This document shows, one piece after another, positions 5,124 to 57,291 of a stretch of 64,000 nucleotides of DNA (its first letter is position 1; every line of letters begins with the position of its first letter). This DNA is from Thermanaerosceptrum fracticalcis. GTDB taxonomy: Bacteria > Bacillota > Peptococcia > DRI-13. The notes under the pieces were generated by a model, which worked only from the letters and a program-made list of their open reading frames with translations, was not told where the DNA came from and made no database searches. The translations under genes and the position numbers were made by a program. The stretch spans positions 2,280,501-2,344,500 of the forward strand of contig NZ_CP045798.1 in NCBI RefSeq assembly GCF_000746025.2, in the 5' to 3' direction.

Positions 5124-5489
5124 TTATGCTTTCTCGTCTACTAACAGGCCAGCCATTTCCATCATTTTTGCCACCATATCCAGGATTTTCTCGGGAGGAA
5201 TTTCTTTTATAACCTCCTCAGTTTGAGTATTAATGACTTTTATCATGATTTGCTTCGTCTCTTCATGGATGGAAAACTCTAGCCTCTTCTCATATAACTC
5301 AAACTTTTGATTGGCCTTTTCAATAGCACTGATTAGTTCCTCTTCCGCATATTTATTCTCTCCACCATTCTGAACAGGAGCAGGATTATCCACAGGCTTA
5401 TCTTTTACTCTTGGCTCCTGAACTTCCCTGTTTATGTTTTGTTGTGTGTTTTGGTTTGTTCCAACCACACTTATACCGTCCACACGCAT
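5124..5489 (-). CDS. flaG: FlaG family flagellar protein
   Basis: Small cytoplasmic protein of 121 aa affecting filament length in other bacteria; biochemical role unsettled. The first 45 residues are polar and low complexity. The conserved FlaG part follows: RLEFSIHEETKQIMIKVINT, then EVIKEIPPEKILDMVAKMME. It is the first gene of the flaG-fliD-fliS-fliT operon, 37 bp downstream of a SigD-type -10 element, the same place as yvyC in B. subtilis. Confidence 0.92.
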   Translation of the reverse strand: MRVDGISVVGTNQNTQQNINREVQEPRVKDKPVDNPAPVQNGGENKYAEEELISAIEKANQKFELYEKRLEFSIHEETKQIMIKVINTQTEEVIKEIPPEKILDMVAKMMEMAGLLVDEKA

Positions 5490-5525
5490 ATAGATCCACC
5501 CTTCTACTTCAATTCCTTAATATAT

Positions 5526-5552
5526 ATATCGGATGTTAAACTAAAAAGTTTA
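5526..5552 (-). promoter_or_regulatory. SigD (sigma-28) promoter of the flaG-fliD operon
   Basis: On the minus strand TAAA (5549-5552), a 15-bp spacer and TCCGATAT (5526-5533) match the flagellar sigma-28 consensus TAAA-N15-GCCGATAT at all but one position. Confidence 0.85.
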
Positions 5553-5711
5553 GATGTTTAGATCATTTTTATTGTAAAAACTTCTTACTTCCATCCATGC
5601 ATCCTGCTTTTCCATCACAAGCTGATAAATCTTTTGCAATATTTCCGCCAGTCTACCGAGTAAAATTCTTGCCGCTTCAACTGCCAAAATATCTGGCAGT
5701 CTAAAAAATAA

Positions 5712-37230: not shown

Positions 37231-38544
37231 TTAATTGTGGGCTGGGCTCCAACTTGGTATGACTAAATTACCCTTTTCGTCAAAAACAAAAGGTTCAGGT
37301 TCACCGATAATTTCAAAGCCCTGCAGTCCTGCTAACTCTTTAGCCAGGTATTCCGAGACATAAATCTCGTCTAGGAACAGGGTATTCCGAACATAAACAA
37401 CTTTCAGCTTATCGGGTTTCACACGGGCACAGGCGCCGACCGCCACCTGGATAGCTTCCTCATCAGTATCAATGATCATGGGGATTTTCACCGAATTAAG
37501 CATAGTGGCGGTAAAAGAGTTAATATAACTCTTCATATAATCAATTTTGTCAAAGAGACGTTTGGTAATCACATCAGCCAGGCCGGTCCCATTGGCGTTA
37601 CCCTCTGTTTTCTCCGTGAGGTCAAGCACAACAATCTTCTGTACCTGAATATCACCTTTGATTCCGGGGACCAGATATCTCCCTACCACGTTGGGATCCA
37701 TTCCATCACCGCTGACATCCTTGCCAATTTCCTGAAGAATGAGGACATCTATTTCAGGAATCTTGATTTTCCCCATAATGGCCTTAGCTTTAGCCAGGAG
37801 TTCTCTGTCCACCTGCCGAAAATTTTCTTTGGGGACTACACGGATATCTGCAGGCTCTTCGTAGGCATTTTCCACAATACCCACCCCAAAATAGATGGGG
37901 GCCTTTTCCAGGATTTTTTCACCCACCGCCGGGATTAACTCATGAAAATACTCCGTGCCCTGGCGATGCACCATACTGGCTCCCTGGTGCTTGCCCAGGC
38001 CAATGGTCAGCATTTTCATCAGACCGCTCTCCACGTCACCTCTAAATAAAGTGTGAGGCTTGACCCTGTTAATCACTACAATGCCATCGGCCTTTAAAGC
38101 GTAGTTATCTACATAGACAGGAAAAGCTTCAGGGGAGGAAGGTATAGTGACCGTTCCTACCTCAGTAACATCCAAAGAAGAAAGGATTTCTACACCCATG
38201 GTTTCTTCAGTTATACCATACTCCTCCAGGATATGTTTTTGCCCTTCAGGCGTGGCCCCGCCATGGCTTCCCATTGTCGGTATGATAAAGGGGTTAAACC
38301 CCTTGTCTTTCAATAAATCAATAACCGCTTTGGTAACCTCGGCAATACAGTGGATACCCCGGCTGCCTACACCTACAGCAATCCTGGCACCTGGCTGCAG
38401 GCGCTCTTCCAAACCTTGGTTTTCAAACTGCTCTCGAATAGTCTGGGCAATGTCTTTCACCCGGGGCCGTTCAAATTTTTGCCGGACACGCACCATACTG
38501 GGAAGTTCCATTTTACTCCATTCCTTAATTAGACCACTAACCAT
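37231..38544 (-). CDS. LarA-family (nickel-pincer) racemase-like protein
   Basis: 437 aa, lactate racemase domain (DUF2088). Family landmarks: ARIAVGVGSRGIHCIAEVTK, then PTMGSHGGATPEGQ, and RVKPHTLFRGDVESGLMKML with its histidine. LarA isomerises D- and L-lactate with a nickel-pincer cofactor; homologs act on other 2-hydroxy acids. It is the last gene of the operon. The lar cofactor genes (larB, larC, larE) are not in the window. The substrate may be a sugar-derived hydroxy acid rather than lactate. Confidence 0.85.
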   Translation of the reverse strand: MVSGLIKEWSKMELPSMVRVRQKFERPRVKDIAQTIREQFENQGLEERLQPGARIAVGVGSRGIHCIAEVTKAVIDLLKDKGFNPFIIPTMGSHGGATPEGQKHILEEYGITEETMGVEILSSLDVTEVGTVTIPSSPEAFPVYVDNYALKADGIVVINRVKPHTLFRGDVESGLMKMLTIGLGKHQGASMVHRQGTEYFHELIPAVGEKILEKAPIYFGVGIVENAYEEPADIRVVPKENFRQVDRELLAKAKAIMGKIKIPEIDVLILQEIGKDVSGDGMDPNVVGRYLVPGIKGDIQVQKIVVLDLTEKTEGNANGTGLADVITKRLFDKIDYMKSYINSFTATMLNSVKIPMIIDTDEEAIQVAVGACARVKPDKLKVVYVRNTLFLDEIYVSEYLAKELAGLQGFEIIGEPEPFVFDEKGNLVIPSWSPAHN

Positions 38545-38572: not shown

Positions 38573-39799
38573 CTACACCAATTCCAGGGGATGACAGATT
38601 TGGGTGGAAAGTCCGGCTCCCCGTACTCCCGACGTCAAATACATGCGGCAGGAAGGGCAAGTGGTAATGAGGATATCTGGCTTTTTCTCCTGTATTTCCT
38701 CTATTTTTTCTCTCTGAATGCCCTTCAACAGCTCAGGGTGCAGCAGCCCAAAACTGCCCCCGCCACCACAGCACTTGGTTTCAGTCTCCATAGCGATGTA
38801 CTGTGCTCCTTCATTATAATATAATACTTGCCGTAATGCCTGTCTAGATATCTCTTCACGCCGGGTATGACAGGGCGCATGATAGGCTACTTTTAGCCCG
38901 CCGGTTTGGGACAATTTTTTTGGTAAACTGTTCTCCCTAGCCAAAAAACCCATAACCTCCATAACAGGTAGAATCTCTTCAGGCTTATCTTTGGCTAAAA
39001 CCATTCCCACATTTTCTTTCCACATATTGGCACAGGAAGCACAGTCAGCCACAACCATATCAACCTTGGCAGCTCTGAAGATTTGTAGATTCTCCCGGGC
39101 TTTTTTCCGGGCCTCCTCCAGGTCCCCATAGGTAAAAGCCGGTAAGCCGCAGCACTGCTGGTCCCGGGGGATGACCACCTCGTATCCGCCGTCCAGGAGA
39201 TGCTGTAAAACAGCCTTACCCGTGGACTGGTAGCACAGATTAGTCATACATCCCACGAAATAGCCTACACGTTTGACAGGTTTTTGTCCAGGTCGATGGA
39301 TTCCTCCATACCTTTCTAAAAAGCTTTGTTCCCCAAACTTGGGCAACTGGTGTAAAGGCATAAACTTTTTGAAGAGGCCCTTGGGGATTAACCCATCAGA
39401 AACTCTATCAGTAGCCAAGCTGCAAAAAGGGTCTGCCAATTGCGCCAGTTTCCCTGCTCTTTCCAGATCGCTTAATGCCCATAAGGTTATTTTTTTTGTG
39501 AAAGGAAGGCCTTCCCTGGTCTTTATCAGATGACGAGCTACAGCCATGATCTGGGCCACGGGCATACCGGAAGGACAGAGGGAAGAACAGGCTTCACACA
39601 TGAGGCACTGGTCCAGGATTTCACTCAACCGCCCTGTAACTGTTAGTTCCCCCTCTACAAGAGCATATAAGATACGCATGCGGCCTCGGGACGTCAGGGA
39701 AGCCAAGCGGCTTGAGCGAAACACAGGGCATTCACCCAGACACAAACCGCACTGGAGGCAGTAGGTGAGGTTACGTCGATATTCTTCTAACCCAATCAT
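38573..39799 (-). CDS. glcF: GlcF-like iron-sulfur subunit of glycolate/lactate oxidase
   Basis: 408 aa from the ATG at 39797-39799, which follows GGTGAGG. Two ferredoxin-type clusters: CLQCGLCLGECPVF and CLMCEACSSLCPSG. Two CCG (DUF3411-type) domains follow with QQCCGLPAF and ETKCCGGGGSFGLL, likely binding further Fe-S. It accepts electrons from the FAD subunit encoded immediately upstream (4 bp gap) and passes them to the quinone or electron-transfer system. LutA/LldE-type proteins are close relatives. Confidence 0.92.
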   Translation of the reverse strand: MIGLEEYRRNLTYCLQCGLCLGECPVFRSSRLASLTSRGRMRILYALVEGELTVTGRLSEILDQCLMCEACSSLCPSGMPVAQIMAVARHLIKTREGLPFTKKITLWALSDLERAGKLAQLADPFCSLATDRVSDGLIPKGLFKKFMPLHQLPKFGEQSFLERYGGIHRPGQKPVKRVGYFVGCMTNLCYQSTGKAVLQHLLDGGYEVVIPRDQQCCGLPAFTYGDLEEARKKARENLQIFRAAKVDMVVADCASCANMWKENVGMVLAKDKPEEILPVMEVMGFLARENSLPKKLSQTGGLKVAYHAPCHTRREEISRQALRQVLYYNEGAQYIAMETETKCCGGGGSFGLLHPELLKGIQREKIEEIQEKKPDILITTCPSCRMYLTSGVRGAGLSTQICHPLELV

Positions 39800-39803
39800 T
39801 ACC

Positions 39804-41228
39804 TCACCCACCACTAACCCCTCCCTCACCTTTGACTGTCCATAGCTTACCTGGATTCATCAAATTGGCCGGATCAAGTACTTTTTTGATGGCCTGCATA
39901 TAGCGAATGCCCTGGGGTCCTAACTGCCAGGAAACAAAGGGTGCCTTGGCCAGGCCCACACCATGTTCCCCGGAAAGTACACCGCCCATCTCCAGGGCCG
40001 CTTTAGCCACCTCACTCATCACATGTTCCACAGCTTCCATCTGGGCACTGTCCCTTTTGTCCACCATAAAGTTGGGATGCATGTTGCCATCGCCGGCATG
40101 GCCTCCCACACCAACCCTGATATTATAGCGGGCACTGGTTTCTTTAATGACCCGCACAATATCGGGCACCCGTCTCCGGGGCACTGTCACATCTTCCGTC
40201 ACTACTGTGGGTGCAGCCTGGGCAAAGGCTGCAAACATAGAGCGGCGGCCAAGCCATAAGCGGGCTACCTGTTCCTCATTGGCGGCCACCACAATATTTT
40301 GTGCGCCCATCATCCGGCAAACATCAGTAACTTCCTGCATTTGTTTCGTTACATTATCTTCTTCGGCCCCGTCACATTCTATTAAAAGAACACCTTCAGC
40401 ACTAGTAGGATATCCTACATTCCGGAAAGATTCCACGGCTCTTACCGTTTCCTGGTCCATGAGTTCCAGGGTTGTCGGAATGACTCCCCTGGCTACCAGC
40501 TCAGAAACCGTAGTAGCTGCCGCATTTAAATCATTGAAACTTACCAGCATTGTCTTCTTATATTTCGGTTTCGGAATAACTTTTAAGATTGCCTCAGTAA
40601 TGATACCCAGGGTACCCTCAGAGCCCACAAGCAGCCGCCCAAATTCGTACCCCACTGATAATTTCATGACTTTACCACCGTAGACCAGCACTTCACCGGG
40701 CGGCAGCACGGCTTCCAAGCCCAGGATATAGTCCTTGGTGGTACCATATTTCACGCCCCGGGGCCCCCCTGCTCTCGTGGCAATATTACCACCGATGGTG
40801 CACACCGTCTGGCTGGCAGGGTCGGGTGGATAAAAAAGCCCTTCCCGTTCTACAGCCCGGTGAATTTCAGCCGTTATAACCCCAGCCTGAACCTTGACCG
40901 TCATATTATCCCGGTCAATCTCCAGGATCTTATTCATCCTTCCCATATCAATCACCAGGGACTCTTCTACGGGGACAATACCTCCAGACAAACCTGTACC
41001 GCTTCCCCGGGGTATCATAGGAATACCCTGGCGGTAGCCATAGGTAAGAACCCGTTTCACTTCTTCCGTAGATGTGGGCAGGACCACCGCCAAAGGAGTT
41101 CCCGAAAACCAACTGGCATCGTTACGATAAGCCATCAGGTCAGCAGGATCTGTTAATACAGCAGCCTCTGATAAAACGTGGACCAAATCCTTACGTAAAC
41201 CCTTTACATCAATCTTTTTATCTTCCAA
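39804..41228 (-). CDS. glcD: GlcD-like FAD-linked 2-hydroxy-acid dehydrogenase
   Basis: 474 aa of the FAD-linked oxidase family (BBE-type). FAD-binding: GSGTGLSGGIVPVEES and GNIATRAGGPRGVKYG. The C-terminal domain has GVGGHAGDGNMHPNF and LSGEHGVGLAKAPF. TTG start with GGGGGG upstream. Together with GlcF it should oxidise glycolate, D-lactate or another 2-hydroxy acid to the 2-oxo acid. A third subunit (GlcE) is missing, as is usual in Clostridia. Confidence 0.93.
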   Translation of the reverse strand: MEDKKIDVKGLRKDLVHVLSEAAVLTDPADLMAYRNDASWFSGTPLAVVLPTSTEEVKRVLTYGYRQGIPMIPRGSGTGLSGGIVPVEESLVIDMGRMNKILEIDRDNMTVKVQAGVITAEIHRAVEREGLFYPPDPASQTVCTIGGNIATRAGGPRGVKYGTTKDYILGLEAVLPPGEVLVYGGKVMKLSVGYEFGRLLVGSEGTLGIITEAILKVIPKPKYKKTMLVSFNDLNAAATTVSELVARGVIPTTLELMDQETVRAVESFRNVGYPTSAEGVLLIECDGAEEDNVTKQMQEVTDVCRMMGAQNIVVAANEEQVARLWLGRRSMFAAFAQAAPTVVTEDVTVPRRRVPDIVRVIKETSARYNIRVGVGGHAGDGNMHPNFMVDKRDSAQMEAVEHVMSEVAKAALEMGGVLSGEHGVGLAKAPFVSWQLGPQGIRYMQAIKKVLDPANLMNPGKLWTVKGEGGVSGG

Positions 41229-41259: not shown

Positions 41260-42033
41260 TTAACCTGATATTACTGTTCTGAAGGCTGCCAGCTTATCTT
41301 TAGAGGCCTGTACCAGCATCCCGGCGTCAGTGGAGTGCATTATGTACTGCACACCACTCTCTGCCCAGTAGCGGGCATCCTCGGGGTCCCTGGCAAAAGT
41401 TCCTATGGCTACCCCTTTCTTCCGGCAGGCCATTGTTACCTTCTCCATTACCTCCACTACCCTGGGATGTTTAACCTCTCCAGGCACCCCCAGAGACTGG
41501 GACAAATCCCATGGCCCTAAGAAGATGACGTCAATACCGGGTACAGCAATGATTTCTTCAACTTTTTCTGCCACCTGGGCCCCCTCGATATGAACAACAG
41601 TTAATACCTCCTCATTAGAGGTAGGGATGTGTTCGGCAGGAGGAATGATGGAATAACCGGCAGCCCGCACAAAACTGCAGAGACCCCTTTTCCCCTGGGG
41701 ATAGTAGCGAGCCGCTTCCATCAACATCTTTACCTGTTCAGCCGTTTCTACCTGAGGGATCTGTACCCCTTCGGCTCCGGTGTCCAAAGCTCGCATGACA
41801 TAGGAAGGCCTAGGTTCAGCCACCCGCACCAGGCTGGTAGTCCCTGAACTCCGGGCTGCCCGCAGCATATTTTCAACTGTAGGGTAATCATATACGCCAT
41901 GTTCCATATCGATAACCACGAAATCCCAACCGGTAAGACCGAGTATCTCTACGGCAGCCGGATTTAAACGGGCAAAAGTCCCCATGCACACCTTGCCTTC
42001 CTTTAACTTTTTCTTCAGTATATTCTCCCTCAT
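41260..42033 (-). CDS. HpcH/HpaI-family class II aldolase
   Basis: 257 aa TIM barrel of the 2-dehydro-3-deoxyglucarate / 4-hydroxy-2-oxovalerate aldolase group. FVVIDMEHGVYDYP carries the base histidine, HIEG the metal-binding glutamate and FLGPWDLSQSLG the metal-binding aspartate. It cleaves a 2-oxo-4-hydroxy acid to pyruvate plus an aldehyde. In this operon it follows the dehydratases and should cleave their 2-keto-3-deoxy product. Product aldehyde depends on chain length and could be glyceraldehyde, glycolaldehyde, lactaldehyde or tartronate semialdehyde. Confidence 0.92.
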   Translation of the reverse strand: MRENILKKKLKEGKVCMGTFARLNPAAVEILGLTGWDFVVIDMEHGVYDYPTVENMLRAARSSGTTSLVRVAEPRPSYVMRALDTGAEGVQIPQVETAEQVKMLMEAARYYPQGKRGLCSFVRAAGYSIIPPAEHIPTSNEEVLTVVHIEGAQVAEKVEEIIAVPGIDVIFLGPWDLSQSLGVPGEVKHPRVVEVMEKVTMACRKKGVAIGTFARDPEDARYWAESGVQYIMHSTDAGMLVQASKDKLAAFRTVISG

Positions 42034-42036
42034 CTC

Positions 42037-43746
42037 TTATCGCCTCCTTTGTTTTGCGATCATTTTGGCCATAACACCCCTGGTAAATCTGGGAGCAGGT
42101 GCTGTCCAACCCTGTTTGCGAACCTCTAAAACCTTCGCTACCTCTTCTGCACTAACTTCGTTGCCAGCAATACCGACGATATTCAACTGGCGCTCCGGTA
42201 TGTTGATTTCAATAATATCGCCATCTTCCACCAGGGCAATTGGTCCCCCTTCCACAGCCTCAGGCTGTACGTGACCGATGCAAGGTCCACGGGTACCTCC
42301 GGAGAAACGCCCGTCAGTAACAAGCGCCGTAGTCTTGGCAAGCTCCGGCTTTATTACCAAAGCTTCAGTAGTCATCAGCATTTCCGGCATACCGCTGCCA
42401 CAGGGTCCTTCATAACGAATGATTAAAACATCTCCCGGACGTACCTTGCCTTCCGTTACTGCCCCACAGCAATCTTCCTCACTGTCAAAGACACGGGCCG
42501 GGCCTTTGTGCACCATCATTTCCGGCTCCACTGCCGAATACTTGATGACTGCACCTTCCGGAGCCAAATTACCGTAGAGGACGGCGATGGAACCCTTCAT
42601 CTTTGCTTTTGGCGGGGGAGTTATCACATCATCGCGGTTGATGCCATAATTATGTAGAAAACCAAGGTATTGTTCAAAATATCCGGCCGCCTCAAGCTCA
42701 GCCAGATTTTCTCCCAGAGTCTTACCCGTGGCGGTCATGACATCCAGATGCAGGTAATCTTTAATATACCACTGCACAAGAGGTATCCCACCTGCAAACC
42801 AGAAAGCTTCGCTGGGATAGGGACCGCTGGGCTGTACCCAGGCCAGGTGAGGTATGAGGCGGTTGTAACGGTCAAAAACTTCTAAAGGTAACTCCAACCC
42901 TAATTCTGCTGCTACCGCAGGAAGATGGAGAGTGGCATTGGTAGAACCACCAATGGCTGCATGTATCGCTACAGCATTTTCAAAGGCCTTCCCTGTTAGG
43001 ATTTGGGAGGCAGTAATGCCCTTCTCCGCTAGCCTAATCACGGCCTGTCCGGCCTGCCGGGCCAGGTTTTGTATGACTGCCATGGTGGCGGGAGCCAGAG
43101 CACTCCCCGGTAGAGCCAAACCCAGGGCCTCAGCCATACACTGCATGGTACTGGCGGTACCCATAAACTGGCAAGCACCGCAGGTTGGCGCTGCTGTCCG
43201 TTGCCTAGAGCGTACCTCTTCCTCGCTGATCGTTCCTTCTTTCTTTCGTGTGGAGCAATCTCCCAAAATAGAGTTACTCATACGGGGCCCAGGCCGCATA
43301 CTCCCTCCGGGTACATGAACCGCAGGAAGATCCAAACGGGCGGCAGCCATCAGGTGAGCCGGTATGGATTTATCACAAGAAGAAATGAGAACCATACCAT
43401 CCCAGGGCCAGACGGAGCCGTGAAGTTCAACCATATCCGCCATGGTTTCCCTGGAAGCCAGTATGTAGTTCATACCGTCATGCCCCTGGGCCCAGCCATC
43501 ACAGATGTCTGTAACATGGAAGTGGACAGGTCGTCCCCCCGACTCCCAAACGCCAATAGCTACGTCCCGGCTTAAACGGTCTAGGTGGACACTGCCGGGA
43601 TGACTTTCTCCCCACACATCATCTACTAAAATTTGCAGTTTATCTAAATCACCTTCCGACCAGTTGGTGCCCATGCGCAGGGCATCGGATTGGGGCCAGA
43701 GGTCCCTGGCTTTTTGCGAACGTTGGCTTTTAACCTGTTTCTCCAT
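42037..43746 (-). CDS. IlvD/Edd-family dehydratase (sugar-acid or dihydroxy-acid dehydratase)
   Basis: 569 aa. The Fe-S cysteines are visible in ISSCDKSIPAHLMAAA and TCGACQFMGTAST, and a further one in GACQ-distal EEDCCGAVTEG. MEH-type substrate loop DGRFSGGTRGPCIGHVQPEA is typical. The family includes IlvD for branched-chain amino acids, Edd, and pentonate/arabonate dehydratases. Its place between an aldolase and a sugar-acid permease favours an aldonic/uronic acid role. It follows a hairpin with a T-run that may attenuate entry into this half of the operon. Confidence 0.88.
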   Translation of the reverse strand: MEKQVKSQRSQKARDLWPQSDALRMGTNWSEGDLDKLQILVDDVWGESHPGSVHLDRLSRDVAIGVWESGGRPVHFHVTDICDGWAQGHDGMNYILASRETMADMVELHGSVWPWDGMVLISSCDKSIPAHLMAAARLDLPAVHVPGGSMRPGPRMSNSILGDCSTRKKEGTISEEEVRSRQRTAAPTCGACQFMGTASTMQCMAEALGLALPGSALAPATMAVIQNLARQAGQAVIRLAEKGITASQILTGKAFENAVAIHAAIGGSTNATLHLPAVAAELGLELPLEVFDRYNRLIPHLAWVQPSGPYPSEAFWFAGGIPLVQWYIKDYLHLDVMTATGKTLGENLAELEAAGYFEQYLGFLHNYGINRDDVITPPPKAKMKGSIAVLYGNLAPEGAVIKYSAVEPEMMVHKGPARVFDSEEDCCGAVTEGKVRPGDVLIIRYEGPCGSGMPEMLMTTEALVIKPELAKTTALVTDGRFSGGTRGPCIGHVQPEAVEGGPIALVEDGDIIEINIPERQLNIVGIAGNEVSAEEVAKVLEVRKQGWTAPAPRFTRGVMAKMIAKQRRR

Positions 43747-44322: not shown

Positions 44323-45819
44323 TTAGAGTACTTTAAGATACTGGAGAACTGCAATTATACCCAAGATGGTCATTACAATACCAGAAATAATGAGAAGAAC
44401 AGAAGCTGCAGTTCCCAGTTGATAGGACTTAGGCATCATCTTTCTGTCAGTCCAGTACATAGCCAGACACCAGATACCACCGGTCAGCACACCACCCAGG
44501 ATGGAGGCAGGTGTAATGATGGCTACGGGGTTAAGTCCGGTCCAAACAGCCACAAGACCACCTAGAGCAATGTAGAGGGATACTGGTAATTTGATGCCTT
44601 TGAAACCTAATTCCTTAATCTTCCTGGATACAGGTGCAAAAGTTTCATAGGTAGTATAAACATAACCCATGTAGCAGCCGTAAATTGTACCAAAGAGTGC
44701 ACAGAATACAGCCAGGTAGTAGAGGTAAACAAGCATAGGATGAATCTGGGTTAAGAATTTAGCCTGATGTGTCAGCATGTCATTGTTAGCAGGTACTAAT
44801 TGAGCGGTGTTAAGGATTACTGCACCGTTAACCATGAAACCGATAGTAAAGATAACCAGGAGTACGAAGGATACTAAGTTGTCCATGAAAGGCGCTTTGG
44901 CCCAGGCGAGACCTTTTCTAACTTCCTCAGGGTCTTCACTGAGAGGAATGCGCTGTCCCTCTTGTAAGCCATCAAGGTAATCCCTGATTTGATCCAGGTC
45001 TTCCCTGCCTAATACGCCCCAGCCTTTTTCACGCATTAAGCCGGTGTATCCGATATAGTCATATGTACCGCCGCCGATAGCTCCCAGATAGGTTACGACT
45101 TCAACCCAAACGGGGCGGCCAGCTATACTTGGATACTTAGCAGCAATCCAGGGTTCATATGAAGGAATAGTGGGAATAAAACTACCTATAAGTACTTGGA
45201 GCCAATCAGGTTTAGCCGCCACAACGGCAACTAAGAGAGCTACAACCATGGTACCGACAATGGCAGTTTGGGCTTTTTCCATGGCATCATAGCCACCGGC
45301 CATAAATAAACTAAAGGCACCTAAGATCAGCAAACTTGCCCAAATTTGTGTTGAAAAGAAAGCGAAGTTCTTACTCAATAAGGTTCCCAGGAGTGAAGAA
45401 ATACCGCCCTGCCAGAAGGGGAAACAGAAGATAGAGAGGATACCCATGAGTAAGGGGAACCAACCTTTAGGCCCTGGGAAAATATATGCCCACCGGTTCA
45501 TGGGATGTTCGCCGGTAAGGGTAATATAGCGGTTAGCAGTATAGGTTTGAACACCTTTCATGACTGCACCTAACATAAAGCACCAGAGAATGGCATAACC
45601 AAAGATAGCTCCTCCCCTGGAAGCAAAGAAGACCTCACCACTACCAATGGTAATCGAAGCTAAAATGGCACCAGGGCCAAAGTACTTAATCAGATCCATG
45701 AATTTACCTTGGGTCAAATCCTTGGGCGGTTCAGGATAGGTAATCAATACGTCCTTCTGAATATTTGGATAACTGGGAATATTCGTTTTCTTACCAATCT
45801 CAATACTCAAATTATTCAC
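44323..45819 (-). CDS. NRAMP-fold permease, probably for a sugar or hydroxy acid
   Basis: 498 aa with about eleven hydrophobic segments. The first one has FGPGAILASITIGSGEVFFA, at the place where metal-transporting NRAMP proteins carry DPGN; Asp and Asn are missing, so metal transport is unlikely. FCFPFWQGG and IGGGTYDYIGYTGLMREKGW follow. The start codon is GTG (or a nearby TTG). Lying between uxaA and the dehydratase/aldolase genes, it is the only transporter of the operon and probably imports its substrate. Confidence 0.78.
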   Translation of the reverse strand: MNNLSIEIGKKTNIPSYPNIQKDVLITYPEPPKDLTQGKFMDLIKYFGPGAILASITIGSGEVFFASRGGAIFGYAILWCFMLGAVMKGVQTYTANRYITLTGEHPMNRWAYIFPGPKGWFPLLMGILSIFCFPFWQGGISSLLGTLLSKNFAFFSTQIWASLLILGAFSLFMAGGYDAMEKAQTAIVGTMVVALLVAVVAAKPDWLQVLIGSFIPTIPSYEPWIAAKYPSIAGRPVWVEVVTYLGAIGGGTYDYIGYTGLMREKGWGVLGREDLDQIRDYLDGLQEGQRIPLSEDPEEVRKGLAWAKAPFMDNLVSFVLLVIFTIGFMVNGAVILNTAQLVPANNDMLTHQAKFLTQIHPMLVYLYYLAVFCALFGTIYGCYMGYVYTTYETFAPVSRKIKELGFKGIKLPVSLYIALGGLVAVWTGLNPVAIITPASILGGVLTGGIWCLAMYWTDRKMMPKSYQLGTAASVLLIISGIVMTILGIIAVLQYLKVL

Positions 45820-45846: not shown

Positions 45847-47007
45847 CTATAATGACATGGATAATCTAGTAATGCCAAATTCCCTGTGCCCCATCACCTC
45901 CGCTCTGGCAAGCCGCCCGTTAATGACCTCAACCAGGTAACGGAACAAATGCTCTTCAACGTCAGCCAGCGTTTCGCGTCCCATAATTACAGTACTAGCA
46001 TTAATGTCCATATCGTCTCCCATCCGTTCCCAGGTTTGAGGGTTCCCTGTAACCTTAATTATCGGGCAAATGGGATGACCGGTGGGTGTCCCCCGACCGG
46101 TGGTGAAAATAGACACCTGACTGCCACCAGCCGCCATACCCGTCAGGGACTCTACGTCATGACCCGGAGTATCCATGACTACCAGTCCTTTCTTAGAAGG
46201 CCTTTCCCCATAGTCTAAAATTTCCTGGAATTTGCTGGTTCCCGCTTTGTGAATAGCACCCAAGGACTTTTCTTCTAGAGTAGTAAGGCCGCCTTTAACA
46301 TTTCCGGGGGAAGGATTTCCTCCTCTGAAATTCGCTCCGAGCCGGAGATAACGAGCTTCTACTTGCTTGATCAGTTCCAAAAACTGCTGACCCAGTTCGG
46401 GCGTAACAGCGCGCTTAGCCATGATATGCTCCGCACCGATGATTTCCGGTGTTTCGGATAGAATAACCGTGCCTCCCAAATTTACAACACGATCGGCTAC
46501 ACCGCCAGTTACAGGATTGGCGGCAATGCCGGAGGTAGTATCAGACCCTCCGCACTCTGTTCCCAGGATCAGGTGTTCCCAGCCAAAAGGCTCTCTCCTG
46601 GCCTGGCCCAACCGTTCTGCCATCTTAATGGCTTTTTTGGTCCCTGCCTCTACAGTCCTGGCTGTTCCGCCAGACTTTTGAATAGAGACAAAATCTACAG
46701 GTTTACCACTTACCGCAATACGACCGGCCAGATCGGCCGCATCCACACTCTCGCAACCCAGGCCTACTACCAGGACAGCTCCCACGTTAGGGTTTTTCCC
46801 GGTACCCTCTAAGGTACGAAAAACCATCTCCATATCAGCACCAATCTGAGCACAGCCATGCTGGTGAGTGATAGGTATGGCCCCCGGGACTGCCGCTGCA
46901 ATGAGTTCTGTAGCTCTATTAGCGCACACCACCGAAGACATGATTACCAGGTGGTTTCTGATTCCGACTTGCTCATCGGGCCGCCAGTAACCCAGCAGTT
47001 CTTTCAT
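45847..47007 (-). CDS. uxaA: UxaA-family dehydratase, large (C-terminal) subunit
   Basis: 386 aa corresponding to the catalytic second part of altronate/galactarate/sulfolactate dehydratases. Landmarks: GIRNHLVIMSSVVCANRATE, THQHGCAQIGAD, LGTECGGSDTTSGIAANP and DTPGHDVESLTGMAAGGSQV with GRGTPTGHPICP. The N-terminal SAF part of one-chain enzymes is a separate protein, encoded 6 bp upstream. Likely reaction: removal of water from a C5-C6 sugar acid to a 2-keto-3-deoxy acid. Sulfolactate lyase is an alternative. Confidence 0.9.
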   Translation of the reverse strand: MKELLGYWRPDEQVGIRNHLVIMSSVVCANRATELIAAAVPGAIPITHQHGCAQIGADMEMVFRTLEGTGKNPNVGAVLVVGLGCESVDAADLAGRIAVSGKPVDFVSIQKSGGTARTVEAGTKKAIKMAERLGQARREPFGWEHLILGTECGGSDTTSGIAANPVTGGVADRVVNLGGTVILSETPEIIGAEHIMAKRAVTPELGQQFLELIKQVEARYLRLGANFRGGNPSPGNVKGGLTTLEEKSLGAIHKAGTSKFQEILDYGERPSKKGLVVMDTPGHDVESLTGMAAGGSQVSIFTTGRGTPTGHPICPIIKVTGNPQTWERMGDDMDINASTVIMGRETLADVEEHLFRYLVEVINGRLARAEVMGHREFGITRLSMSL

Positions 47008-47013
47008 AAACTT

Positions 47014-47304
47014 CTACCTCCCCTGTTGATCACCGCGTCCTCTGCGTCCTTCCGTGTTATGGATATGTACGTGTTCACCTGCTTTGATAAAGGCAAAAGC
47101 TGCACCGATGGATTCCCCGTACTTAATCACTTCTTCCCCCGCCTGAATGTCCCTCAAGGCAACTTTATGACCAAAGGGAATGGGTTGAAGGGTTTTCACG
47201 TCCATGATTGTTTCGGCTATAAGTGTTTCACCTTCAGCCAAGTCTCTTATTACCGTGGCTACGTTATCTCGTTTACTCATTACCACCACATTTTTCTCCT
47301 GCAT
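47014..47304 (-). CDS. UxaA-family dehydratase, small (SAF-domain) subunit
   Basis: 96 aa from the ATG at 47302-47304 (AGGAAGAGG upstream; an in-frame TTG at 47311-47313 is possible). SAF domain with VIRDLAEGETLIAE, then PFGHKVALRDIQAGEEVIKY and the ending HVHIHNTEGRRG characteristic of UxaA/GarD small parts. First gene of the operon, coupled to the large subunit. Confidence 0.88.
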   Translation of the reverse strand: MQEKNVVVMSKRDNVATVIRDLAEGETLIAETIMDVKTLQPIPFGHKVALRDIQAGEEVIKYGESIGAAFAFIKAGEHVHIHNTEGRRGRGDQQGR

Positions 47305-47419
47305 CCGAACCAACCTCTTCCTGAAACCATATGCTAAAAATTTGTAACTTATGAATATTCAGTCCTTTATGAAAGTAAACAGGAATACCCGTCAGTTAAT
47401 TCACTGGTATTTGCCGTAA

Positions 47420-47617
47420 GTTCATTATATTGAACTGTTGTTTATGGCTACTGGGTTACTAGAGATGTGGTCATAAACCACATCTCTAGTAACAAAACTA
47501 TATTTCCGCCTTGTTTATTATATAGAATCGGCTGTATGAAATCCAAGTCCATCGGAATCGTTCATTATATTGAACAACGAGGCCGGTTTTGCTGTTTTTT
47601 TGTTCATAATTATGAAT
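47420..47617. promoter_or_regulatory. Three GTTCA-N6-TGAA(C/T) dyads upstream of the sugar-acid operon
   Basis: GTTCATTATATTGAAC occurs twice without change (47420-47435, 47560-47575), and GTTCATAATTATGAAT at 47602-47617. On the minus strand the first two contain TATAAT. The dyads lie in the 410-bp gap between the AOR gene and uxaA, with a 17-bp hairpin (47455-47493) between sites 1 and 2. The pattern fits a dimeric repressor acting through several sites; its gene is not identified. Nothing else was seen in the gap. Confidence 0.7.
47455..47493 (-). terminator. Perfect 17-bp hairpin after the AOR gene
   Basis: GTTACTAGAGATGTGGT and complement with a CATAA loop. It lies about 230 bp after the AOR stop and has no T-run, so it may be a terminator aided by the surrounding AT-rich DNA, or a folded leader of the uxaA operon. 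Confidence 0.6.
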
Positions 47618-47723
47618 CTATGTTTATTATATCAAATAGATAATTATAATACAATGCGCCATTGATAGATTTTAATTTTATATATACGGCTAGAACATTT
47701 TTTTGTGGATTCTTCCGGTATCA

Positions 47724-49613
47724 TTACATCTTTTCGGCAATCCAATCCAATTCCAGTTCAGCCAGTTTCGTCTTAGAGGGGACCCCTTCCTCATTCCAGC
47801 CCACGAAAGCATAATACATTTCAACGGTCTGTTGAAATTCTTCCCTGGGAATGGCATGCCCCTGTAATTTACCGTTTTCCAGTGGTTCAAAGAGCCTTTC
47901 GGGGATGGTATCATCTTCCCTGGTAAAACCCTCTCGTATATTAAACATCCTGGCCATGTTAATGACCCGTTCTGCACTCTTCATGATTTCCCAGAGAGAG
48001 GTATCCCAACCCGCAGCGGCTTTCACCAGGTCTACTACGTCGTCCATGGGTAGCGAACCCCGGGGCACAGGCCCAAAGTGACATATCCCGGCCATATTGT
48101 GAAAGCACCACCACTGCTGGAGATAGCTGAAGTTCCGGACCTTTCGCGGTGTCAATTCCCTAGGGCTTACAGGTTCCAGTATTCCCAGGGGAGCAACGCT
48201 GTCCAGGATAATACCCTTTTGCTCTAACAAAGGATCATGAGCAGCCACCATGTGGTCGGCCCCTATTTCCGATACGGCATAACCTAACCCCAGCCCGTAC
48301 TTGGCTCTGGGATCATGCATAGGCAGTTCCTGGCCTTTCACACACAACGTGAATTTTTCAGATCCTTTGCCTATTTTCCGGGCGGCACTGGCCGAGCCTT
48401 CAGCCAGCAGGTCACCGATACCCTCCCGTTTTGCTATCTTTTCAATGAGTTGTAGCACTGCTTCACCATTGCCAAAAGTCAATTCCATACCGTCCAAATC
48501 ATCTTTACTGAGAATACCTTTTTCGAAACACTCCATGGCAAAGGCAATGGATGCTCCCGTACTAATGGTATCAATGGTATAACGGTTACAGAGTTCGTTG
48601 GCCTTGGCAATTAACTCCAGGTCGTCTATTTCACACAGGGAACCGAAAGAGCCTATAGTTTCATACTCCGGTCCTCCAAACTTGGGATCCACCTGCATTT
48701 GTTCTTTATCTACTTTTACAGCCCTCTTGCACCTGACGGCACAGGCATAGCAACCTTCTCTTTTTTGCAAGATGGTGTCCGCCATGGTTTGGCCACTAAT
48801 TTTATCAGCCCCGGCAAATTCCCCTTTAATAAAGTTTTTGGTGGGCAAATTTCCCCCGGCGTTGAGGCTAGTAACACCCGCGGAAGTTCCAAATTCATAT
48901 AAAGTCCGGCTCATGGGATGGTTCATATACTTAGCCAGGTATCTCTTGCCGATTTCCTTAATCTTTTCCTCATCGGCAAAGGGTATTCTCTTGGTACCCC
49001 TTACCGCTACCGCTTTAAGGTTCTTGGAACCCATGACGGCCCCCAGGCCATTCCTGCCGTTAAAATGTTTCAATTCATTGGTAATGCAGGCAAACCTTAC
49101 GAGATTTTCCCCACCGGGGCCGATCTGGGCGATGCGAACATTCTGATCCTTCAGTTGGTCGCGAATTAAATTCTGGGTATCCCCCGTCTCTTTCCCCCAG
49201 AGGTGTCTAGCATCTTTAATTTCAATCTTATCGTCATGGATATAGATGTATACCGGTGCCGGTGCTTTCCCTTCAATGATAAGGGCGTCATATCCTGCCT
49301 TTTTTAGCTCCGGCCCCCAGAAACCACCCGCTTCCGATTCGCCAAAAGCACCGGTAAGCGGCGATTTGGCTCCCACAGAAAAACGGGGCATAGCCGCTAC
49401 GGGAGCACCCGTAAGAATCCCGGTGGCAAAAATCAACTTATTTTCTTCCCCCAAAGGATCGATGTGAGGAGGCAGTTCTTGCAGCAAATAATAGGCAACC
49501 AAACCTTTCCCTCCGTAATATTTCCGGTAGAACAGGTCTCCGGGTTCCTCAATCTTGATTTTAGCTGTCGATAAATTGATACGAATGATTTTACCTGTGT
49601 AACCAAAAGGCAT
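47724..49613 (-). CDS. aor: Tungsten-type aldehyde ferredoxin oxidoreductase
   Basis: 629 aa. AOR domain 1 begins GYTGKIIRINLSTAKI with KYYGGKGLVAYYLL. The [4Fe-4S] ligands are C288, C291 and C295 (CYACAVRCKR) and C511 (AGICHFGPV). Pterin-binding NGRNGLGAVMGSKNLKAVAV is intact. It oxidises aldehydes to carboxylic acids, or in reverse, with ferredoxin. It ends a three-gene operon after gntR and a moaD-like gene. A second AOR-family gene enters the window at 63079. Confidence 0.95.
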   Translation of the reverse strand: MPFGYTGKIIRINLSTAKIKIEEPGDLFYRKYYGGKGLVAYYLLQELPPHIDPLGEENKLIFATGILTGAPVAAMPRFSVGAKSPLTGAFGESEAGGFWGPELKKAGYDALIIEGKAPAPVYIYIHDDKIEIKDARHLWGKETGDTQNLIRDQLKDQNVRIAQIGPGGENLVRFACITNELKHFNGRNGLGAVMGSKNLKAVAVRGTKRIPFADEEKIKEIGKRYLAKYMNHPMSRTLYEFGTSAGVTSLNAGGNLPTKNFIKGEFAGADKISGQTMADTILQKREGCYACAVRCKRAVKVDKEQMQVDPKFGGPEYETIGSFGSLCEIDDLELIAKANELCNRYTIDTISTGASIAFAMECFEKGILSKDDLDGMELTFGNGEAVLQLIEKIAKREGIGDLLAEGSASAARKIGKGSEKFTLCVKGQELPMHDPRAKYGLGLGYAVSEIGADHMVAAHDPLLEQKGIILDSVAPLGILEPVSPRELTPRKVRNFSYLQQWWCFHNMAGICHFGPVPRGSLPMDDVVDLVKAAAGWDTSLWEIMKSAERVINMARMFNIREGFTREDDTIPERLFEPLENGKLQGHAIPREEFQQTVEMYYAFVGWNEEGVPSKTKLAELELDWIAEKM

Positions 49614-49855: not shown

Positions 49856-50575
49856 CTAAACCTCCGCCTTGTTCTCAGGGGTAATGTTCTCCACCATCAA
49901 AATGTTCTGCTTAGCTTTTTCCAGGTGTTCTCGCATATAGTGAGCGGCAAGGTTCTCATCCCCTGCTTTGATGGCCTCAAAAATCTCCCGATGGTCCCTT
50001 ACTGTTTTTAAGGGTTGATTGGGAATTTTCAGGGTGGCTTCCCGGCTGGAACTCAACATATCCCCAATTAAGTTCATGATCTTCAGTAAAACCTGATTCT
50101 GGGAGGCGGTAGCAATAGCCAGATGGAAGGTGTCATCACCCCGCAGACCTATGTTTCCGGACTGGATTTCCTCCTCCATGATGGTGATACCCTCCTCAAT
50201 GGCCTTGAGGTCCTCCTCTGTGGCATGTAAAGCCGCTAACCGGGCCGTTTCCACTTCCAGCAAACTCCTTACATGAAGGAGGTCCAGAATATGACTCCTT
50301 TCCTTGAGAATAATAGAAGCAAAGGGTTCAATGATGGAGTCAATGGTGATCTCCCGGACAAAAGTACCTTCTCCTGGCCTGCCATAGATAAAGCCCATGA
50401 TTTCCAAAGCCCGCAGTGCTTCCCGTACCGCAGTTCTACTGACATTCAGGGTCTCGGCAAGTTCCCGTTCTGTAGGTAATTTGTCTCCCGGTTTTAAAAC
50501 CCCTTGGGTAATCAGGTCCTTAAGCTGCTTTACTATTCCCTCATATAGTCTGGTCCTTTTCATGGGTTCCAGCAT
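49856..50575 (-). CDS. GntR/FadR-family transcriptional regulator
   Basis: 239 aa. Winged HTH with LKPGDKLPTERELAETLNVS and VREALRALEIMGFIYGRPGE. The FCD ligand-binding domain (about 95-225) shows LHVRSLLEVETARLAALHAT, with DTFHLAIA and HREIFEAIKAGDENLAAHYM giving the metal/ligand Asp and His. It is likely a repressor responding to a carboxylic acid or aldehyde. It is the first gene of the gntR-moaD-aor operon. A FadR-type TTGGT-N3-ACCAA site lies upstream of the dehydrogenase operon and a related dyad upstream of this gene. Confidence 0.93.
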   Translation of the reverse strand: MLEPMKRTRLYEGIVKQLKDLITQGVLKPGDKLPTERELAETLNVSRTAVREALRALEIMGFIYGRPGEGTFVREITIDSIIEPFASIILKERSHILDLLHVRSLLEVETARLAALHATEEDLKAIEEGITIMEEEIQSGNIGLRGDDTFHLAIATASQNQVLLKIMNLIGDMLSSSREATLKIPNQPLKTVRDHREIFEAIKAGDENLAAHYMREHLEKAKQNILMVENITPENKAEV

Positions 50576-57278: not shown

Positions 57279-57291
57279 TTGGTCTAACCAA
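57279..57291. promoter_or_regulatory. FadR/GntR-type operator at the dehydrogenase operon promoter
   Basis: TTGGTCTAACCAA, a perfect 5-bp dyad with the N3 centre of FadR-subfamily GntR operators (TGGTNNNACCA). It is 72 bp upstream of the E1 alpha start codon, with AT-rich promoter-like DNA (TATACA at about 57265-57270) just downstream. The FadR-type regulator at 49856-50575 is the obvious candidate to bind it. Confidence 0.65.

Follow-up and report, generated by a model that had tools for sequence, protein, structure and literature searches.

An IclR-family regulator encoded in trans as the predicted partner of three probable operator dyads upstream of the uxaA operon in Thermanaerosceptrum fracticalcis

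The uxaA operon of Thermanaerosceptrum fracticalcis lies in a 64,000-nucleotide stretch of the genome (NCBI RefSeq assembly GCF_000746025.2, contig NZ_CP045798.1, forward-strand positions 2,280,501 to 2,344,500), referred to here as the window, and positions given without a further label are counted from its first letter. The operon and its neighbouring genes are as follows.

47014 to 47304, minus strand: uxaA small subunit (SAF domain), first gene of the operon proposed to be regulated
45847 to 47007, minus strand: uxaA large subunit (D-galactarate/altronate dehydratase domains)
44323 to 45819, minus strand: Nramp-superfamily transporter
42037 to 43746, minus strand: IlvD/EDD-family dehydratase, a candidate aldonate dehydratase
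41260 to 42033, minus strand: HpcH/HpaI-family aldolase
38573 to 41228, minus strand: GlcD-like and FeS (GlcF/GlpC-like) hydroxyacid oxidase subunits
37231 to 38544, minus strand: nickel-pincer-cofactor isomerase, group 22, above the curated cut-off

Because an IlvD-type dehydratase, an HpaI-type aldolase, an AOR gene and GlcD/GlcF-like subunits lie nearby, a reasonable guess is that the pathway would run from an aldonate through a 2-keto-3-deoxy acid to pyruvate plus an aldehyde, and on to a hydroxyacid and an oxoacid. The statement in the original prediction that no regulator is encoded in the operon holds for the uxaA operon itself, but an FCD-type GntR gene (49856-50575) is located two genes upstream.

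The 419-bp intergenic gap between the AOR gene (47724-49613) and the uxaA small subunit contains three dyads, O1 to O3, located 115-313 bp before the small-subunit ATG, together with the elements of a candidate promoter, P1.

47420 to 47435, minus strand: predicted operator dyad O3, GTTCAATATAATGAAC on the operon strand, same letters as O2
47440 to 47443, minus strand: third box AAAC of O3, giving the sole full AAAC-N4-GTTCA-N6-TGAAC match genome-wide
47513 to 47528, minus strand: degenerate copy ATTCTATATAATAAAC, 13 of 16 letters, a doubtful operator or the -10 region of a second promoter
47560 to 47575, minus strand: predicted operator dyad O2, GTTCAATATAATGAAC, centre 42 bp (4 turns) from that of O1
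47602 to 47617, minus strand: predicted operator dyad O1, ATTCATAATTATGAAC on the operon strand, overlapping the predicted start of P1
47622 to 47625, minus strand: third box AAAC of O1, 4 bp upstream of the O1 dyad
47622 to 47637, minus strand: degenerate copy ATTTGATATAATAAAC, centre 20 bp from O1, including the P1 -10 and the O1 third box
47626 to 47631, minus strand: candidate -10 of P1, TATAAT, read from sequence
47649 to 47654, minus strand: candidate -35 of P1, TTGTAT, weak, 17 bp before the -10, read from sequence

Two identical 16-mers 140 bp apart and a third 42 bp further on had been described, and these positions are correct: on the forward strand GTTCATTATATTGAAC occupies 47420-47435 and 47560-47575 (140 bp start to start), and GTTCATAATTATGAAT at 47602-47617 follows 42 bp beyond the 47560 copy. 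Their description as a triplicated GTTCA-N6-TGAAC is accurate as to the three sites, but the motif is exact only twice, the third copy carrying one arm mismatch. The role of the degenerate copy at 47622-47637 would mostly be to supply the extra AAAC box of O1.

Exact GTTCA-N6-TGAAC occurs at four places in the whole 3.81 Mb genome, two of them in the uxaA upstream region and the other two both within protein genes. A first-order Markov model of the 419-bp gap gives on average 0.00025 exact sites in each simulated sequence, and two never occurred together in any of the 20,000 of matching length and composition, which argues that the dyads upstream of uxaA are not a product of chance. A random spread of the motif over the genome had been named as an outcome that would speak against a regulatory role; close matches beyond the two regulated promoters, those of uxaA and of the regulator described below, lie nearly all in coding sequences and appear chance-like. 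Looser matches elsewhere in the genome are likewise nearly all intragenic, and no further regulon member was accepted among them. When the whole intergenic region was compared by BLAST with 100 related genomes, only one trivial 43-bp match was returned outside this genome, and a plasmid search with the same region gave no match. Conservation is thus restricted to the sites, and for this reason relatives were fetched by protein, with the large uxaA subunit as query.

The candidate promoter P1 was called by eye and scored below the promoter-scan threshold; its predicted start near 47619 falls within the span of the O1 third box and dyad. As originally noted, TATAAT is present in both identical copies, O2 and O3, when these are read on the minus strand, which is the strand of uxaA. 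The hexamers could therefore be true promoter -10 elements around which the palindrome is incidental. However, no plausible -35 is found at 16-18 bp from O2 or O3, and the dyad arms are conserved between genomes whereas their centres are free to vary (GTACTC, AAACTA, TTAGAT), so that this explanation appears highly improbable.

Could the dyads instead work in RNA, as small hairpins of the uxaA leader? If transcription starts at P1, the putative leader (47300-47625, minus strand) would be ~315 nt long, and it folds much better than shuffled sequences (z = -6.0), with a predicted long-range stem pairing AACCGGCCUC with GAGGUUGGUU beside the uxaA start. However, much of this stability comes from other stems, among them a perfect 17-bp inverted repeat between the operators at 47455-47493 (GTTACTAGAGATGTGGT-5-ACCACATCTCTAGTAAC), which occurs once in the genome and is flanked by no T run. 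Moreover, the arm changes seen at the sites (GTTCT...TGAAC, GTTCA...TGTAC, GTTCA...CGAAC) break the pairing rather than compensate for it, the AAAC box, conserved on one side only, has no part in RNA pairing, and a search against Rfam returned sub-threshold chance matches with no family above its gathering score. A function as RNA hairpins seems highly improbable.

Which protein, then, would recognize these sites? In BRH_c20a (L024) the gene order is dyad, maoC-like, iclR, uxaA small subunit, uxaA large subunit, aldolase, and the dyad GTTCAGTACTCTGAAC lies just ahead of the maoC ribosome-binding site. The IclR protein of this cluster is 63% identical over 252 residues to an IclR-family protein of T. 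fracticalcis, P0002, clearly its orthologue in this genome; no other IclR protein encoded there exceeds 47%, and that over part of the length. P0002 is encoded at G000:C1:3536154-3536915, 1.2 Mb from the uxaA operon, and contains the N-terminal domain PF09339 (HTH_IclR, 55 bits) and the C-terminal domain PF01614 (IclR_C, 182 bits), both above cut-off. Its promoter carries GTTCAATATAATGTAC, 65 bp before the start (L035 1391-1406), which agrees with the 16-mer at 15 of 16 letters; a whole-genome search gave no other match outside the window with one mismatch or fewer. The 3-kb loci of the other IclR genes of this genome contain no dyad with one arm mismatch or fewer. A candidate iclR promoter, TTGAAA-16-TATAAT, read by eye at L035 1333-1360, would start transcription near 1367, upstream of the dyad. 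Downstream of P0002 follow iorA, iorB, an hpaB-type gene, an acyl-CoA dehydrogenase gene, etfB, etfA and a fixC-like gene. A hairpin (GATACG...CGTATC) with TTT and a TATAATAAAC element behind it lies in the gap between iclR and iorA (L035 2270-2330) and may be an attenuator or another promoter.

The dyad recurs before maoC, iclR or uxaA in G031/G430 (L022, L072), in G038/G432 (two maoC copies) and in G077. The L022 locus has GTTCTTTATATTGAAC at the equivalent place before maoC and GTTCAAAACTACGAAC before uxaA, and in G077 an exact GTTCATTAGATTGAAC lies ~100 bp before the start of a 47%-identical IclR in a locus syntenic with that of P0002 (iclR-iorAB-hpaB-acd-etfBA, order kept up to the etf genes). 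A site at the regulator's own promoter is found in T. fracticalcis and likewise in L024, L072 and G077. The site-linked IclR proteins form one clade with a support of 0.999, joined by two G432 relatives, and have a distinctive helix in common. Orthologues of P0002 with at least 63% identity are present in G031/G430 and G038/G432 (the genomes of L022 and L024); no site could be recognised directly upstream of a second orthologue in G038 (C51:33572).

The dyad is absent from the uxaA upstream regions of G001/G429 and T. wiegelii, genomes that have uxaA without this IclR clade. The nearest matches to P0002 in G001/G429, which belong to the same genus, are 41% identical and fall in other clades, although the absence of the regulator from G001 is uncertain because that genome is only ~80% complete; T. 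wiegelii has no P0002 relative at E <= 1e-20, and its single near-match to the dyad (L023 5921) lies within the uxaA coding sequence. At locus L021, from the same genus and with a uxaA 91% identical, no dyad is found upstream of uxaA even at two mismatches. There the AOR gene before uxaA survives only as a decayed remnant (5437-5688, 59.5% identity over 84 residues), and for this reason the operator region has apparently been lost by deletion; operator region and IclR regulator are both missing from this genome alongside the AOR remnant. Exact matches to the full site AAAC-N4-GTTCA-N6-TGAAC show the same distribution, with one in G077, two in G038 and one in G031, all four intergenic and before maoC or iclR, versus none in G001 and none in T. 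wiegelii, and they are confined to genomes with this IclR clade.

The nearest regulator gene is that of the FCD-type GntR protein, which is on the same strand as uxaA and adjoins the AOR gene, and one could propose that the dyads are its sites. Operators of the FadR/PdhR/LldR type have the form TNGTNNNACNA. GTTCA-N6-TGAAC lacks this form, and there is no perfect TNGTNNNACNA core before uxaA. A perfect TTGGTTAGACCAA does occur at 57279-57291 (minus strand), before a PDH-like cluster ending in the FCD-GntR gene, and is likely the operator of that regulator. Since the dyad is moreover linked to iclR in relatives, assignment of the dyads to the GntR protein is very unlikely.

Taken with the genome comparison, the architecture of the sites points to the IclR family. 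In six of nine aligned sites AAAC lies at offset -8, which leaves exactly 4 bp between box and dyad, and the next best offset accounts for two; the nominal binomial value of 1e-10 is overstated because some of the sites share descent. The box is seen independently in O1 and O3, the maoC group and G077; O2 and the L022 uxaA site are without it. Wherever present it is on the upstream side of the dyad, which gives the three-box site a direction relative to the gene. Three-box sites with a half-site outside the dyad have been published for IclR-family operators, in which three- and four-turn spacings of neighbouring sites are over-represented (Suvorova and Gelfand 2021, PMC8222616). The present sites resemble these group-1/three-box operators in the third box, with its opposite arrangement and short spacing, in the 42-bp O1-O2 distance (4.0 helical turns, same face), in the proposed autoregulation together with control of one or two operons, and in the dyad itself, GTTCAATATAATGAAC being close to the group-1 consensus GKTYCRYW3-4RYGRAMC with some general-consensus positions unmatched. 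It also fits the NpdR consensus of Rhodococcus opacus (GTTCMRYATMRTGAWS, cited in PMC8222616) at 16 of 16 positions, although NpdR belongs to another phylum and to a 2,4,6-trinitrophenol pathway. PcaU of Acinetobacter baylyi (cited in PMC8222616) similarly has a three-box site with the third box external to the palindrome, but regulates aromatic-acid genes rather than sugar-acid or hydroxyacid genes. The present case departs from the operators in that survey in that a single operon has three dyads in front of it, the most distant ~300 bp away, and in that the gene for the regulator is not linked to this operon. Regulators and sites of this class are already well known, and the predicted pair is a further example.

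The dyads are very probably operators of P0002, encoded in trans and controlling both the uxaA operon and the regulator's own operon, as judged from sequence comparison. That the region holds regulator-binding sites for uxaA, as first proposed, is strongly supported, and the suggestion of an IclR-type candidate is supported by comparative genomics down to a specific gene. Points that speak against the assignment to P0002 are the lack of linkage to the uxaA operon in this genome, the second G038 orthologue without a nearby upstream site, the missing third box at O2 and at the L022 uxaA site, and the weak -35 of P1. We hypothesize that P0002 would bind as one dimer per GTTCA-N6-TGAAC dyad, with the extra AAAC half-site at most sites, as an autoregulated repressor working by promoter occlusion or as a roadblock. 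O1 and its third box would cover the -10/+1 region of P1; O2, which lies 42 bp (four turns) further downstream on the same helix face and close enough for side-by-side cooperativity, would assist in this way; and O3 would act as an additional roadblock. In the case of iclR and maoC, the site would lie downstream of the promoter or directly before the ribosome-binding site. Repression is probable because the bound protein would cover the start or block the path of the polymerase at uxaA, iclR and maoC; the sign is nonetheless uncertain because the IclR family also includes activators and dual regulators. A two-layer switch, in which the regulator bound to an oriented three-box array also governs read-through or ribosome access past the folded uxaA leader, would be a long shot.

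The original prediction envisaged a looping repressor. Since IclR-family proteins can be tetramers (PMC8222616) and two strong sites lie 140 bp apart, one tetramer might bridge O3 and O1/O2 over 140-182 bp. The looping part of the claim is not favoured by the geometry, as, with 10.5 bp to the turn, O3-O2 (140 bp) spans 13.3 turns and O3-O1 (182 bp) 17.3, so that the sites are out of phase, and promoters in most relatives have just one site, which places looping outside the conserved mechanism. Looping over 140 bp is unsupported and not needed to account for the sites, and we consider it unlikely.

A pathway 2-oxoacid or hydroxyacid would presumably lift the proposed repression by P0002. The best NCBIfam models for P0002 are BhcR (202 bits, cut-off 350) and KdgR (193 bits, cut-off 275), and P0002, being below both curated cut-offs, was rejected as an equivalog of either. 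The effector of KdgR is a 2-keto-3-deoxy sugar acid. The effector of BhcR is a small 2-oxoacid, and in E. coli IclR residues D212, S239 and S241 contact the carboxylate oxygens of glyoxylate or pyruvate (PMC11323563). The equivalents of these residues appear conserved in P0002 when it is aligned to AllR, a hint that its effector may be a small 2-oxoacid.

With this assignment, an anonymous palindrome becomes a specific regulator-operator pair that is open to experiment. One predicted regulon would join distant operons, the first with uxaA, IlvD, aldolase and hydroxyacid oxidase and the second with IorAB, HpaB, acyl-CoA dehydrogenase and ETF, and the shared regulon is a clue that both serve one pathway in these anaerobic Firmicutes. 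In G038 (C51), the second maoC-like gene has a perfect three-box site in front of it (L149 1619-1642), and the genes behind it encode a glycyl-radical enzyme with its activase and ProC-like and DapA-like proteins, a different pathway placed behind an operator of this type.
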